Positions 1,522 to 60,241 of a DNA stretch of 64,000 bases are shown here, one piece after another; positions within the stretch are counted from its first letter, which is position 1, and each line of letters opens with the position of its first letter. Where the stretch lies: positions 1-64,000 of the forward strand of contig NZ_VJZP01000017.1 of NCBI RefSeq assembly GCF_007097265.1. Reading direction: 5' to 3'. A model generated the notes under the pieces. It was given only the letters and a program-made list of their open reading frames with translations. It was not told the origin of the DNA and searched no databases. Origin of the DNA: Flavobacterium gawalongense (GTDB lineage: Bacteria; Bacteroidota; Bacteroidia; Flavobacteriales; Flavobacteriaceae). A program made the position numbers and the translations under genes.

Positions 1522-3033
1522 ATGTCTAAACAAGTTCGGGTGCGTTTTGCACCAAGTCCAACTGGACCTTTACATATTGGCGGAGTTCGTACCGCATTAT
1601 TCAATTATTTGTTTGCCAAAAAAAACAATGGCGTTTTCTTCTTAAGAATTGAAGATACCGACCAAAACCGCTATGTTCCCGGTGCCGAAGAATATATTAT
1701 GGAAGCGTTGGAATGGCTAGGAATTGCACCAGATGAAACCATTGGAAAAAACGAAAAATTTGGACCTTACCGTCAAAGCGAAAGAAAACACTTGTACAAA
1801 CAATACGCTGATGAATTAATCAATTCCGGTAATGCGTATTATGCTTTTGATACTGCAGAAGATTTGGACGCACATAGAAAGCTAGAAGAAGAACAAGGAA
1901 AAACCTTTATATACAATCACCACAACAGAGAAAAACTAGACACTTCTTTGGTTATTTCTGCTTCAGCAACTGCCAAAAGAATTGCTGACGGTTCAGCTTA
2001 TGTGATTCGTTTTAAAACTCCGGTAAACGAAACCTTGCATTTGCATGACATCATTCGTGGAGATGTAAAGTTCGAAACGAATCTTTTAGATGATAAAGTA
2101 TTGTTTAAAAGCGATGGAATGCCAACGTATCATTTAGCCAATATTGTAGATGATCATTTAATGGAAACTTCTCATGTAATTCGTGGTGAAGAATGGTTGC
2201 CTTCCATGCCTTTACACGTTTTATTGTACAGAGCCTTTGGTTGGGAAGCACCGGAATTTGCACATTTACCATTGATTATGAAACCTGTTGGAAACGGAAA
2301 ATTATCCAAACGTGACGGTGACAAAATGGGATTTCCTGTTTTCCCATTAGATTGGAAAACTGCAGAAGGCGTTTCATCCGGTTACAGAGAAAAAGGATTT
2401 TTTCCGGAAACCGTTATAAACTTTTTGGCATTATTGGGTTGGAATGACGGAACCGAAAAAGAATTATTCTCACTAGAAGAATTAATTCAAGCTTTTGATT
2501 TGAAAAGAGTTCATAAAGCTGGAGCGAAATTTGATCCGGAAAAAAACAAATGGTTCAATCACCAATATTTGATAAAACAAAAAGAGGAAGATTTGGCGAA
2601 AGCCTTTGCTCCTATTGTTGCTGAAAAAGGTTTCTCGACTGCGCTCGAAATGACAAAGTTGAACAAAATAGTTTCCTTAATCAAAGACCGTGCTCATTTC
2701 GTTTCGGAATTTTGGGAATTGAGTGATTTCTTTTTTGTGGCTCCAACGGTTTATGATGAAAAAGCAAGCAAAAACTGGAAGGAAGAAACGCCAGCATTAA
2801 TGCAAGAATTGATTTCTGTTATAGAGGAAATTACAGATTTCACCTCAATGAATATAGAAACCATCGTTAAAGATTGGATGACAAAAAACGAAATTGGAAT
2901 GGGAAAAGTAATGCAGCCATTTCGTTTGAGTTTGGTTGGCGCGCTGAAAGGTCCTCACCTATTTGATATCGTGGAAGTAATTGGAAAAGACGAAACAATC
3001 AAGAGAATTCAAAAAGCAATAGCTACTTTATAA
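1522..3033 (+). CDS. gltX: Glutamate--tRNA ligase
   Basis: A 503-aa class I aminoacyl-tRNA synthetase that charges tRNA-Glu with glutamate in the cytoplasm. The HIGH-type motif is HIGG at residues 18-21, preceded by FAPSPTGPL. The KMSKS-type motif is KLSK at residues 260-263, followed by RDG. Length and motif spacing are normal for bacterial GluRS. The frame is open upstream to 1462, but the ATG at 1522 starts the conserved N-terminus directly and follows a promoter-like box, so I use it. A strong terminator-like hairpin follows at 3039-3071. Transcription appears monocistronic. Confidence 0.97.
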   Translation: MSKQVRVRFAPSPTGPLHIGGVRTALFNYLFAKKNNGVFFLRIEDTDQNRYVPGAEEYIMEALEWLGIAPDETIGKNEKFGPYRQSERKHLYKQYADELINSGNAYYAFDTAEDLDAHRKLEEEQGKTFIYNHHNREKLDTSLVISASATAKRIADGSAYVIRFKTPVNETLHLHDIIRGDVKFETNLLDDKVLFKSDGMPTYHLANIVDDHLMETSHVIRGEEWLPSMPLHVLLYRAFGWEAPEFAHLPLIMKPVGNGKLSKRDGDKMGFPVFPLDWKTAEGVSSGYREKGFFPETVINFLALLGWNDGTEKELFSLEELIQAFDLKRVHKAGAKFDPEKNKWFNHQYLIKQKEEDLAKAFAPIVAEKGFSTALEMTKLNKIVSLIKDRAHFVSEFWELSDFFFVAPTVYDEKASKNWKEETPALMQELISVIEEITDFTSMNIETIVKDWMTKNEIGMGKVMQPFRLSLVGALKGPHLFDIVEVIGKDETIKRIQKAIATL

Positions 3034-5872: not shown

Positions 5873-6179
5873 GATATTCCATTTTTGATTGTTAATAATC
5901 TAAAATTACGAATTTTATTAACATATCGCTGTTAACAAGCCGTTAATTTATTTTAAACAAGGTTAAAAAACGAAATAAAACACGCTATTGAAACAAATCT
6001 TTAACAAGTATATTGGAACTCGTAAAACTCAAAAAAAGGTTTTAAATCTAATTTATTTAAGTTGTTTTTAATTAATAAATCTTATAATAAATTGAATTAT
6101 AATAAAAAATATCAATAATAAAAAAAGCGCCTTATAAAAAGCGCTTTTCATTGTTAAAATCTATATTTTAAATTATGTC
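5873..6179. other. Gene-free AT-rich stretch
   Basis: About 307 bases, very AT-rich, between the YtxH operon start and the end of glnS. Apart from the glnS terminator at 6123-6148 I see no gene, RNA or repeat. It presumably carries the YtxH operon promoter. Confidence 0.5.
6123..6148 (-). terminator. Terminator after glnS
   Basis: Perfect arms AAAAGCGC (6123-6130) and GCGCTTTT (6141-6148) around a 10-base loop. On the minus strand it ends in a T-run beyond the glnS stop. Confidence 0.75.
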
Positions 6180-10973: not shown

Positions 10974-13166
10974 TTACTTTAATGGTTCTTCAATTCTTCT
11001 TAAAAAATTAAAATCCAGTTGTTTTTTAACTAAATCGGCATTTTTTACTTTAACGTAAATTTCATCTCCTAATTGTAATAGTTTACCCGAAGTTGCGCCT
11101 GTTAGTGCATATTGTTTTTCGTCAAATGTGTAGTAATCGTCTTTTATATCTCGAATTCTACACATTCCTTCACATTTATTCTCTATAATTTCTACATAAA
11201 TTCCCCATTCAGTAACACCCGAAATTACTCCTAAAAATTCTTGATCCTGATGATCTTGCATGTATTTTACCTGCATATATTTAATAGAATCTCGCTCCGC
11301 ATTTGTAGCCAACCCTTCCATAGTTGAAGAATGAACACATTTCGTTTCATACGTTTCTTCATCTACAGATTTTCCTCCATCCAAATAATGCTGCAACAAT
11401 CGATGTACCATTACATCGGGATAACGACGAATTGGTGATGTAAAATGGGAATAATAATCAAATGCTAAACCGTAATGCCCTATATTATCAGTAGAATATT
11501 TTGCTTTACTCATACTTCTGATAGCCAAAGTATCAATTAAATTTTGCTCTTTTTTACCATTGACTTCTTCCATTAAAGCATTCAATGATTTTGAAATATC
11601 TCCTTTATTACGGAAATCAATTTTGTAACCAAACTTTGCAATTACTGTTTGCATAGCAATTAATTTATCTTCATTTGGTTCATCGTGAATCCTATAAATA
11701 AAAGTTTTCTTTTGTTTTCCAATGAATTCTGCTACTTTTTTATTAGCCAAAAGCATAAATTCTTCAATCAGATGATTAGCATCTTTTGATATTTTAAAAT
11801 AAACTCCCTGAGGTTCACCATTTTGATCTAAATTAAATTTTACTTCTACTTTATCAAAAGAAATTGCCCCTTCGGCCATTCTTCTTTTTCTAAAAATTTT
11901 AGCTAATTCATCGAGTTTTAAAGTAGCTGATACAATTTCCTCAGCAACTTGATATGAACTTCCAGTTATTGCAATTTCTTCCGGAATAATATCGTCTTTC
12001 GTCTCTATGATATATTGCGCTTCTTCGTAAGAAAATCGTTGGTCTGAAAAAATTACTGTTCTACCAAACCACTGATTGACCACTTGTGATTTTTCAGTAA
12101 TTTCGAATATAGCTGAAAAGGTATATTTTTCTTCATTTGGTCGTAATGAACAAGCAAAATTCGATAATACTTCAGGTAACATTGGTACTACTCTATCCAC
12201 TAAATAAACTGAAGTAGCTCTTTGAAACGCCTCGTCATCCAAGATTGTTCCTTCTTCAAGATAATATGAAACATCGGCAATATGAATACCAATTTCGTAA
12301 TTACCATTTTCTAATTTTTTAAATGATAAGGCATCGTCAAAATCTTTGGCATCTTTTGGATCAATCGTAAAAGTCAACGTATCACGCATGTCACGACGTT
12401 TGGCAATTTCACTTGCTTCTATCGATGTATCTATTTTTTGGGCATAGGTTTCCACTTCAATAGGAAATTCAGCTGGCAAACCATATTCAGCAAGAATAGC
12501 GTGAATCTCCGTATCATGTTCTCCTGGTTTCCCTAATACTTTAATTACTTTTCCAAAAGGACTATCCGCTCTGTCTGGCCAATCTTCAATATGAACTAAA
12601 ACCACATCGCCTTGCTCTGCGGCTCCTATTTTATCTTTTGGAATAAAAATATCCGTGTACATTTTTGGATTGGCTGTAGAAACAAAAGAGAAGTTTTTCT
12701 GGATATCAATGACACCCACAAAATCAGTTTTATTTCTTTCAATCACTTCAATCACTTCACCTTCAGGTCTTTTCCCTTTTCTTCTATTGTAAACATATAC
12801 TTTTACAATATCTTTATCTAAAGCGTGATTTAAATTATTGGTTGGAATGAAGACATCTTCTTCTAAATCTGGACAAACAAAATAAGCTGTTTTACGACCT
12901 GTCATATCAATCTTACCTTCGTAATAATCTTTACTGACTGCTTTTACTAAATATTTTCCAGGTTCTGATTCTATAATTTTATTTTGAGAAGCCAGAATCT
13001 TCAAATCTTTTATAATTTGATTTCTGCTTTGGGTATCATCGAGTTCCAGCTTTGCACCTATTTGTTTATAATTGAATGCTTTATTAGCACTTTGCGACAA
13101 TATTTTTAATATTTTATCAGAGAAATCTTTCTCTTTTTTGATCGGCTTTCTTAATCTTTTACTCAT
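10974..13166 (-). CDS. rnr: Ribonuclease R
   Basis: A 730-aa 3'-5' exoribonuclease of the RNB family that degrades structured RNA. From the N-terminus: a winged-helix region (about 12-75), cold-shock-type domains (about 80-235), the RNB catalytic domain with DPKDAKDFDDAL at 269-280 supplying the metal-binding aspartates, HIADVS at 295-300, and a C-terminal S1 domain (about 640-720). Length is typical. It is the first gene of a minus-strand run with the GIN and LysE genes and lies left of the candidate replication origin, transcribed away from it. Confidence 0.96.
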   Translation of the reverse strand: MSKRLRKPIKKEKDFSDKILKILSQSANKAFNYKQIGAKLELDDTQSRNQIIKDLKILASQNKIIESEPGKYLVKAVSKDYYEGKIDMTGRKTAYFVCPDLEEDVFIPTNNLNHALDKDIVKVYVYNRRKGKRPEGEVIEVIERNKTDFVGVIDIQKNFSFVSTANPKMYTDIFIPKDKIGAAEQGDVVLVHIEDWPDRADSPFGKVIKVLGKPGEHDTEIHAILAEYGLPAEFPIEVETYAQKIDTSIEASEIAKRRDMRDTLTFTIDPKDAKDFDDALSFKKLENGNYEIGIHIADVSYYLEEGTILDDEAFQRATSVYLVDRVVPMLPEVLSNFACSLRPNEEKYTFSAIFEITEKSQVVNQWFGRTVIFSDQRFSYEEAQYIIETKDDIIPEEIAITGSSYQVAEEIVSATLKLDELAKIFRKRRMAEGAISFDKVEVKFNLDQNGEPQGVYFKISKDANHLIEEFMLLANKKVAEFIGKQKKTFIYRIHDEPNEDKLIAMQTVIAKFGYKIDFRNKGDISKSLNALMEEVNGKKEQNLIDTLAIRSMSKAKYSTDNIGHYGLAFDYYSHFTSPIRRYPDVMVHRLLQHYLDGGKSVDEETYETKCVHSSTMEGLATNAERDSIKYMQVKYMQDHQDQEFLGVISGVTEWGIYVEIIENKCEGMCRIRDIKDDYYTFDEKQYALTGATSGKLLQLGDEIYVKVKNADLVKKQLDFNFLRRIEEPLK

Positions 13167-13285: not shown

Positions 13286-13519
13286 ATGGAAGAATTTCAA
13301 ACCATTGCTATTTTTAATTATTCGCATGAAATTGTAGTTCTGAAACATATTTTAGATCAAGAGGAAATCCCTTATTTTTTTGAAAATGAAACTACATTAT
13401 CCGTGGCTCCTTTTTATTCAAATGCTTTAGGCGGAATTAAATTAAAAGTTCATCTAAACGATTTTGAAAAGGTTCAGGAAATTTTAGATCATTTGAATAA
13501 CAATCTAACCATCGTTTAA
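13286..13519 (+). CDS. DUF2007 domain protein
   Basis: A 77-aa protein with the DUF2007 layout: an N-terminal strand ending in a helix that starts IVVLKHILDQEEIPYFFEN, then a GGIKLKV strand and a final helix EKVQEILDHL. Members are sometimes called putative signal-transducing proteins and resemble PII-like small folds; no function is proven. It is divergent from rnr, with 119 bases between them, and lies directly left of the gene-free AT-rich region. Confidence 0.8.
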   Translation: MEEFQTIAIFNYSHEIVVLKHILDQEEIPYFFENETTLSVAPFYSNALGGIKLKVHLNDFEKVQEILDHLNNNLTIV

Positions 13520-14242
13520 TTCAATTTGAATGTTTTATTTTTCAAAGTTGTCAACATATATTAATATAAACAAAAAGAAAAATTAAATTTAAATTATTTT
13601 TTGGTTGTTATTATAGCTTGTTAATAGCTACAATAAATTTATTTTAAAAGGTATTGAAATGAAGTTTAAAGTTGTTATACCGACTTATCAACAATACTAT
13701 TTTAGGGTAAAGGATTAGTTTTAAAGTGTTTTTAAATTTTAATTAACAATGGTTAATAATTCTAATAGAATTGTTTTTGTAAATAAGTATTTTTTGAATT
13801 TTTGTTGATAAACTACTTTTTTATAATGATAACTATTCTAAAAATTCAACAAACAAAATTTGGATTTCTAATATGGGTTTTGGATTACTTATTTTTTGGT
13901 TACAACCAAAAAAAACTTCTAATATTCTATCCAAAGTTATGAACATCTTATGTTAATTTAAAGTTAACTGAATATCAAGCAATTAAGTTTTGCTATTAAC
14001 AATGTGAAAAATTAACATTTTAAATATAAAATATACATTGATCCACAGCTATTTATATATTTATTAGAATTGTTAATAAAGCCTAATCAAATAGCAATCT
14101 GATAGTTATAGAATCTACAATTTACTTTAATTTTTAATGACTTATTTGAATTAAATTAATCTATTAAAGAAAGCGAGATTTAAATTCAACAAAACTAAAT
14201 TTCTTTATTTAAATTTGCACCATACAACTTAACACATTAAAA
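13520..14242. other. Candidate chromosomal replication origin (oriC)
   Basis: A 723-base gap without any credible gene, extremely AT-rich. DnaA-box-like 9-mers seen: TTATCAACA at 13685-13693 (plus) and 13803-13811 (minus), TTGTCAACA at 13548-13556, TTATGAACA at 13937-13945 and TGATCCACA at 14039-14047; the consensus is TTATCCACA. Genes to the left run mainly on the minus strand and genes to the right mainly on the plus strand, as expected when replication leaves here in both directions. The origin call is inference: in an AT-rich genome some near-matches arise by chance, and dnaA is not nearby (in Bacteroidota this is not required). Confidence 0.45.
14210..14217 (+). promoter_or_regulatory. 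-7 promoter element before rpiB
   Basis: TAAATTTG fits TAnnTTTG and ends 25 bases before the rpiB start codon. Confidence 0.5.
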
Positions 14243-14671
14243 ATGAAAATATCCATAGGAAACGATCACGCTGGTCCAGAATACAAACACGCCATTGTTG
14301 AAATGTTAAAAGCAAAAGGACATGAAGTAACTAATTATGGAACTGATTCTGCAGATAGTGTAGATTATCCTGATTTTGGACGTCCGGTTGCCATAGATGT
14401 TTCTGAAGGAAAAGCTGATTTTGGAATTGTTATTTGCGGAAGCGGTAACGGAATTTCAATGACAGTAAATAAACAGTCTAAAGTACGTGCTGCTTTATGC
14501 TGGATGAAAGAAATTGCAGTATTAGCCCGTCAACATAATGACGCTAATATTATCAGTATTCCTGCACGTTACACTTCAATTCCGCAAGCAGTAGAAATGG
14601 TGGAAGCTTTCTTGGATACTAAATTTGAAGGAGGAAGACATCAAACAAGAGTGAATAAAATTAGCTGTTAG
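14243..14671 (+). CDS. rpiB: Ribose-5-phosphate isomerase B
   Basis: A 142-aa RpiB/LacAB-type enzyme interconverting ribulose 5-phosphate and ribose 5-phosphate in the pentose phosphate pathway. Family signatures are GNDHAG at residues 6-11, DSVDYPDFG near 41-49, and the active-site loop ICGSGNGIS around residue 70 with its catalytic Cys, followed by the NxQSKVRAALC helix. Length is normal. It is the first gene right of the candidate origin, and its 3' end overlaps the convergent DUF1294 gene by 11 bases. Confidence 0.94.
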   Translation: MKISIGNDHAGPEYKHAIVEMLKAKGHEVTNYGTDSADSVDYPDFGRPVAIDVSEGKADFGIVICGSGNGISMTVNKQSKVRAALCWMKEIAVLARQHNDANIISIPARYTSIPQAVEMVEAFLDTKFEGGRHQTRVNKISC

Positions 14672-14945
14672 TAACTATTTTTTCATAAAAATAAAATAAT
14701 CCAACCGCAATTAAAATTTGGATAATTACAATTTTGTAAAACTTAAAAAGATAGTATTTTTTAGAAGTTTTATGATTGAAAATATACATGGCTAATGCCG
14801 AACCAATTGTACCGCCAAAAGCAACAAATGTTAAAAGGGTTTCTTCGGAAATCCTTTTTTTATTGGCAATTGCTAATCGTTTATCATATGCAGTAATTAT
14901 AAAAGTTAAAATATTCAAGATTAAAAAACTATATAATAAAGTCAT
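14661..14945 (-). CDS. DUF1294 membrane protein
   Basis: A 94-aa protein with about three hydrophobic segments and the DUF1294 signature: YDKRLAI near residues 20-26, then FGGTIGSALAMYIFNHKT in the middle, followed by SKKYYLFKF. Function is unknown. The last codons overlap the 3' end of rpiB on the other strand. The upstream side faces tex with a 121-base gap. Confidence 0.85.
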   Translation of the reverse strand: MTLLYSFLILNILTFIITAYDKRLAIANKKRISEETLLTFVAFGGTIGSALAMYIFNHKTSKKYYLFKFYKIVIIQILIAVGLFYFYEKIVTNS

Positions 14946-59925: not shown

Positions 59926-59959
59926 AATTTAATTAGGAGCTAATCGCGCTGTACGTTAC

Positions 59960-60059
59960 AAGCTTTACTTTAAAATTGGTTTTTTCTAAGTCCAAAAAGG
60001 AGCTTCCTTTGGTCGCTCTTTTTTGTCCAAGAAAAAATACAATTTTAAAGTAAAGGCTT
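59960..60059. repeat. Long hairpin element (about 45-bp arms)
   Basis: Arms 59960-60003 and 60015-60059 pair with few mismatches; both contain TTTACTTTAAAATTG. The preceding text (GAGCTAATCGCGCTGTACGT) looks like part of the same dispersed element. The gap 59926-60327 has no gene; besides this it holds only the hairpin at 60242 and AT-rich sequence. Confidence 0.7.
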
Positions 60060-60241
60060 TTCACTTTCATCACGGCTAAAAAACAACAACAATGACGATA
60101 AACAGTATCAATTAATCACAGCACGATTTGCCAAACTATGAAACTGCGCATACAAACAACAAAACATATTGACTAAAACTGAATATATATAGAAAAAAAA
60201 TCTTTTTGAAAACCAATATTTATTATAGAAGGTAATGGTCA

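Follow-up and report, generated by a model that had tools for sequence, protein, structure and literature searches.

A predicted chromosomal replication origin with a divergent DnaA-box-like motif upstream of rpiB in a Flavobacterium

The 723-bp gap between the DUF2007 and rpiB genes of a Flavobacterium is very probably the chromosomal origin of replication (oriC), a function predicted here by comparative analysis of a stretch of 64,000 nucleotides (the window). The gap holds an array of DnaA-box-like 9-mers that is conserved, occurs as one strong copy per genome, coincides with a GC skew switch in complete relatives and has parS sites near it in relatives. DnaA would assemble on about nine conserved TTATYAACA/CTATTAACA boxes lying on both strands from 13548 to 14079 and would melt the most AT-rich block beside the first box, at about 13553-13602; two forks would then depart in opposite directions. 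Points against this assignment are the non-canonical box, whose binding by the cell's own DnaA is predicted, the draft state of the genome, two relatives lacking the element (G022 and G027) and the weak skew of G022. A preliminary description of this DNA had already interpreted the gap as an origin, and the box excess, the conservation and the skew in complete congeners support that interpretation.

Table 1. Features of the predicted origin region and its surroundings (window coordinates)
Feature	Position	Strand	Basis and remarks
gltX, adjoins the element in four other species	1522..3033	+	ORF, start set at ATG; tblastn in L131, L169, L171, L191
rnr, points leftwards from the origin	10974..13166	-	ORF
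DUF2007 gene, left neighbour of the gap	13286..13519	+	ORF; family name from the preliminary description
Predicted oriC region	13520..14242		intergenic DUF2007/rpiB; 723 bp; 19.4% GC; no ORF; conserved among relatives
DnaA-box-like TTGTCAACA	13548..13556	+	box at this place in 57/77 named loci
Candidate DNA unwinding element; 50-mer with the lowest predicted stability in the gap	13553..13602		prediction from nearest-neighbour stability scan; AT block conserved in alignment
DnaA-box-like CTATTAACA	13619..13627	-	exact offset in 34/77 loci (fewest)
DnaA-box-like TTATCAACA	13685..13693	+	73/77 loci
DnaA-box-like TAATTAACA, facing the 13751 site	13740..13748	+	70/77 loci
Segment for sequence-only model R1	13741..14015	+	alignment A1 and model R1
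Weaker box-like TTATTAACC	13751..13759	-	matrix score 6.2, below cluster threshold 7; conserved in alignment
DnaA-box-like TTATCAACA	13803..13811	-	35/77 loci, same offset or +1 base
Conserved block GTTTTGGATTAC	13877..13888		alignment
DnaA-box-like TTATGAACA	13937..13945	+	41/77 loci one base on (window-equivalent 13938)
DnaA-box-like CTATTAACA	13993..14001	+	50/77 loci, same offset or +1 base
DnaA-box-like TTATTAACA	14071..14079	-	50/77 loci, same offset or +1 base
Probable rpiB promoter -7 element TAAATTTG, outside the origin proper	14211..14218	+	conserved directly upstream of rpiB in alignment
rpiB, right neighbour of the gap	14243..14671	+	ORF

Results

The gap and its neighbours

The boundaries of the gene-free gap proved exact, with the DUF2007 reading frame ending at 13519 and rpiB starting at 14243, and it contains no ORF of 70 or more amino acids. 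Its very high AT content was also borne out (19.4% GC compared to 32.5% across the whole window). No Rfam family reached its gathering score within the gap; elsewhere in the window a Flavo-1 RNA (RF01705, 57.2 bits) was found at 59938-60081 on the minus strand. The switch of gene orientation around the gap was confirmed with one exception. Rnr, GIN and LysE indeed lie on the minus strand and rpiB and tex on the plus strand, but a 94-amino-acid minus-strand ORF between rpiB and tex (14661-14945) opposes the general rightward orientation. Except for DnaA, which was assigned by a family model match, gene names are those of the preliminary description or of our own recognition. TAAATTTG is probably a promoter -7 motif.

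The box motif of the lineage and DnaA

DnaA boxes vary between bacterial lineages, and a non-canonical box was therefore not treated as excluding an oriC. As judged from sequence comparison, the predicted box of this lineage is TTATYAACA/CTATTAACA and not TTATCCACA. This departs from the earlier view of boxes close to the canonical form and is derived from 26 same-genus gaps upstream of rpiB, in which DnaA-box-like words with A replacing C at position 6 are strongly over-represented. CTATTAACA was counted 37 times versus 0.8 expected and is present in 24 of the 26 gaps; the corresponding values were 30 versus 1.3 for TTATCAACA, 47 versus 3.7 for TTATTAACA and 18 versus 0.3 for TTGTCAACA, all of these counts being inflated by shared descent. 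GTTAACTGA was among the other conserved words ranking high beside the box variants. The gaps derive from 30 rpiB loci, four of which (L009, L019, L024 and L030) offered no gap that could be used; 25 gaps entered the alignment, and L031 with only 215 bp was added for the 9-mer count. In L003, L013, L015, L018 and L020 DUF2007 was not found or was found only in part; there, rnr, the incomplete DUF2007 match or a manual choice defined where the gap starts on the left.

The exact canonical TTATCCACA is absent from the gap, and no cluster of it was found in three genomes, where it occurs at 50, 30 and 34 scattered places with the closest pair in our own genome (G000) 480 bp apart. A canonical cluster elsewhere was rejected as the origin because of this scattering. 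Genome-wide, TTRTYAACA occurs 313 times in G000 and is thus rarer than the pattern read backwards (488), a shortage that would fit avoidance of the motif away from the origin.

Domain IV of the DnaA encoded by this genome, aligned with that of E. coli (1J1V), has RDHATVLHAC where the E. coli protein has RDHTTVLHAC, and SLANIG where it has SLPEIG. The altered Thr and Pro are residues which we take to be base-contacting in the E. coli DnaA complex. A link between these changes and the A at box position 6 may be regarded as a lead only. G061, an order-level relative, has the same Ala for Thr, and the DNA upstream of its rpiB contains both CACA boxes and AACA boxes. Of 26 DnaA-trio runs in 25 gaps, 4 end 0-15 nt before a box, a raw count, and none was convincing.

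Box sites in the gap

All five 9-mers cited in the preliminary description were located at their positions, namely TTGTCAACA (13548, plus), TTATCAACA (13685, plus, and 13803, minus), TTATGAACA (13937, plus) and TGATCCACA (14039, plus). Four of them recur in relatives, while TGATCCACA is not conserved as a box in the alignment. The inventory was incomplete, since both copies of CTATTAACA (13619, minus; 13993, plus), TAATTAACA (13740, plus) and TTATTAACA (14071, minus), all recurrent in relatives, had been overlooked. In total, eight box places are recurrent, the least frequent being shared by 34 and the most frequent by 73 of the 77 named loci; in many relatives the site at 13937 is occupied by TTATTAACA or TTATCAACA. 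This box map covers 77 of 80 named loci, L214 (partial element) as well as L224 and L235 (no match) having been left out.

The probability that the array is a chance pile-up of AT-rich words in a gene-free gap is close to nil. At 81% AT, AT-rich 9-mers are common, but the strict box pattern matches 7 sites in the gap compared to a mean of 0.40 and a maximum of 4 in 5000 dinucleotide shuffles, none of which reached 7; this box class was learned from the gaps of the relatives themselves. Moreover, the places recur over the 77 loci, and this conservation refutes a chance origin. With the canonical box as reference, 3 sites with at most one mismatch to TTATCCACA were found versus 0.21 expected (P 0.0015) and 10 sites with at most two mismatches versus 3.2 expected (P 0.0005; 2000 Markov sequences in both cases). 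The excess over a shuffled background proposed earlier as a check was thus found, and the gap is also the densest cluster of the window, with 8 sites per 700 bp compared to 5 for the next one. The latter comparison used a matrix trained on 21 gaps with G000, G010, G036 and G045 left out and a cluster threshold of 7. Its background averages 0.34-0.52 sites per 700 bp in sampled stretches of five genomes, and clusters of 9 sites were found at the element in G010 and in G042, whereas the sampled stretches missed the element in G036 and cut through it in G045. Over the 77 loci, box density amounts to 5.6 and 6.5 per kb in the two element bins and to 0 to 1.7 per kb elsewhere.

Three further box-like 9-mers, two of them TTATTAACA and one TTGTTAACA, lie in intergenic DNA at 5890-5938, 7.6 kb left of the gap. 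In the corresponding bin of the 77 loci box density is raised, too.

In the stability prediction, 87 of the 673 50-mers of the gap fall in the least stable 1% of the window. The least stable one is the candidate melting site and lies next to the first box.

Conservation and changing place of the element

The gap can be aligned across 25 species with the boxes well kept on both strands. R1 matches 44 of 49 same-genus genomes (6/7, 22/24 and 16/18), of which 25 are training genomes; outside the training set 19 of 24 genomes were matched. Of the five genomes without a match, G003, G031 and G034 are fragmented or incomplete drafts, and G022 and G027 are 99% complete. The element is present as one strong copy per genome. 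A second, weak match was obtained in 2 of the 44 genomes, and the one in G021 is possibly the other half of an element split between contigs. Among the 80 named loci, at least 8 of which are records already included in the earlier genomes so that the two sets are not independent, 78 were matched; in the two loci without a match, rpiB is preceded by 9 and 105 bases of sequence. Hence, the boxes are kept in close relatives, where their loss had been named as a possible refutation, and the element conforms to the single, conserved copy expected of a chromosomal origin.

In 25 of the 30 rpiB loci inspected the element is situated directly upstream of rpiB, and the promoter-like TAAATTTG is conserved at the right end of the gap in most alignment rows. 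Both observations would fit a gap that serves rpiB as an extended regulatory leader or as its promoter region, with the boxes as transcription factor sites. This reading is largely refuted and was rejected as highly improbable because the element is separate from rpiB in five species, 1.8 kb away in G042 and 14-16 kb away, adjoining gltX, in G009, G011, G020 and G041. Nor does a leader predict a chromosome-wide skew switch, and in G042 the skew still switches at the element. In the window, the end of gltX is 10.5 kb from the gap.

G022, in which just 215 bp separate rnr from rpiB, has a box array of at least 5 sites at about 999.4-999.7 kb (L135:19434-19692), upstream of ybeY-mnmG, and two parS sites lie 0.7-1.0 kb from it. 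Raw skew changes from slightly negative to positive at this array, while strand-corrected values are noisy. The sibling G027 (L273, upstream) also shows boxes upstream of mnmG, some at places matching those in G022. This array is a tentative candidate and likely represents a relocated or replaced origin. Four matrix clusters of 7 or 8 sites were found in G022 near 1.0-1.05 Mb. In the same genome, CTATTAACA and TTATTAACA alternate at L137:17123-18216 and L138:1482-2612, often at spacings of 150-200 bp, a pattern that resembles a repeated element more than an origin.

With slightly less than even confidence, we propose that the origin element shifts within the genus among a few nearby intergenic sites (at rpiB, at gltX and perhaps at the ybeY-mnmG array of G022 and G027), parS staying beside mnmG where both were located (G000, G010, G022 and G045), and that A at base 6 of the box is possibly matched by the DnaA domain IV changes.

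GC skew, dnaA and parS

Within the window, most GC skew values between about 3 and 14 kb are negative and most of those to the right of the gap are positive; positive skew is also seen over the first 4 kb. As our genome is a draft of 86 contigs, in which skew can be seen only locally, skew was tested in complete congeners. Third-position GC skew was calculated per gene strand and averaged in 20-kb stretches, which removes the effect of gene orientation; 5 of 73 stretches were unusable due to too few genes on one strand. In G010, G036, G042 and G045, 30 of 33 stretches left of the element were negative and 33 of 35 right of it positive. In the fifth complete congener, G022, which lacks the element, strand-corrected skew about rpiB was weak (7 of 10 negative to the left, 6 of 10 positive to the right).

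Under the assumption of an antipodal terminus, the best-scoring origin interval contains the element in all four complete congeners that carry it; its width of 10-15 kb partly reflects the sampling design with denser stretches near rpiB. Origin scores for the element and for dnaA were 1.96 and -0.40 in G010, 2.18 and -0.11 in G045, 1.58 and 0.60 in G042, and 1.40 and 0.04 in G036. The skew analysis suggested in the preliminary description thus came out in favour of the element, with lower values for dnaA.

A location of dnaA beside oriC is common but not universal. As described before, dnaA is not near the gap. In G000 the two are on different contigs; in the four complete congeners, which have rpiB at 0.87-1.12 Mb, dnaA and the element are 0.87-1.12 Mb apart. 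In G000, three scattered box-like sites were found in the 1.5 kb upstream of dnaA. The dnaA region was rejected as the origin, its skew score being below that of the element in these congeners. The five single-contig records of the genus that we used all start at dnaA or shortly ahead of it; the match to DnaA begins at base 25 in four of them and at base 127 in G022.

Sites matching TGTTNCACGTGNAACA, which we take to be the parS consensus, are located 16-19 kb from the element (3 of 3 sites in each of G010, G042 and G045; 2 of 3 in G036). In our draft genome both parS sites are on a contig other than that of the gap. At about 0.64 Mb from the element, a lone parS-like site in G036 (G036:C1:1513385-1513400) departs from the pattern of the remaining sites in the complete congeners.

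It may be asked whether the gap is a DnaA-titrating or regulatory cluster, the true origin residing in another gap within about 20 kb, e.g. at 5890-5938 or by mnmG, whose distance from the element is 16-18 kb in both G010 and G045. This view is in line with the second box cluster at 5890-5938, with the elevated box density of several flanking bins (at most 1.7 per kb) and with origin predictions published for the family, which name mnmG and gltX. In G010, however, the skew sign flips between stretches that meet at the element, all other bins stay far below the two element bins in box density, and the 1.5 kb preceding mnmG proved free of boxes in G000, G010 and G045. We consider a titrating cluster very unlikely and retain the interpretation of the gap as oriC.

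Order-level relatives

R1 found no match in six order-level genomes. For 26 order-level genomes, a broader box pattern of our own choice was counted over the 1 kb upstream of rpiB and exceeded expectation in 11 (P <=0.05, uncorrected); the 31 genomes considered also included three in which rpiB gave no match, one in which upstream DNA was missing and one beyond the limit of 20 stretches. parS was found about 3-39 kb from the place upstream of rpiB in G050, G061, G065 (with a box excess of only P 0.09) and G076; a parS search in G058 and G059 found none. Raw skew in the 10 kb on each side changed from -0.154 to 0.235 in G050, from -0.072 to 0.012 in G061, from -0.013 to 0.040 in G065 and from -0.006 to 0.069 in G076. 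Since R1 finds nothing at this distance, continuity within the order is based on box counts upstream of rpiB and on raw skew in four genomes, which hints, but no more than hints, at a long-standing origin near rpiB in the order.

Discussion

This type of origin is well known. The divergent box and the changes of place of the element within a genus are of interest to specialists, the changes of place being the most novel side. In the four complete congeners with the element, the likely origin is 0.87-1.12 Mb from dnaA, and methods that equate dnaA with the origin would be wrong there. Narrowed down to about 0.53 kb and to a defined box, the predicted origin would lend itself to origin plasmids, marker-frequency checks and tests of DnaA specificity in a large genus of environmental bacteria, where the differing neighbourhoods also allow the study of small-scale origin relocation. 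Among the matches listed, no paper was recognized by title or start of the abstract as placing a Flavobacterium origin in this gap, and none of the five papers containing the whole words rpiB and oriC was flavobacterial by title; DoriC may hold an automatic prediction.

Origins of the E. coli/B. subtilis type consist of a DnaA-box cluster and an AT-rich unwinding element. The gap resembles them in its cluster of 9-mers on both strands, the adjacent AT-rich block, the skew switch, the single strong copy and, in four complete relatives, parS sites no more than 20 kb away. It differs in its box (TTATYAACA/CTATTAACA instead of TTATCCACA) and in the distance to dnaA, 0.87-1.12 Mb in the complete relatives, and no convincing DnaA-trio was found.

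In the flavobacterial endosymbiont Blattabacterium Bge the origin was likewise placed by GC skew, but unlike in our case neither DnaA boxes nor dnaA were reported to be found (PMC2768785). The predicted oriC of Elizabethkingia meningoseptica comprises 649 bp with three matches to TTATCCACA (at most one mismatch) and has dnaA 1.87 Mb further along the record (PMC8994065). It shares box matches and a distant dnaA with the gap, whereas it is based on the canonical box. mnmG was named as origin by Ori-Finder 2022 in Algorimicrobium (PMC12843772) and in Mariniflexile litorale (PMC11278836); in the latter, dnaA disagrees with the skew plot, and text and figure legend conflict on the ori and ter labels (PMC11278836). 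For F. enshiense, gltX was named as the origin where skew turns (PMC9867689). These three automatic predictions point to the same neighbourhood as ours and, in the portions of the reports available, name a gene and not the gap and give no box array or comparison. The gltX origin of F. enshiense (PMC9867689) agrees with the arrangement in G009, G011, G020 and G041, in which the element adjoins gltX.
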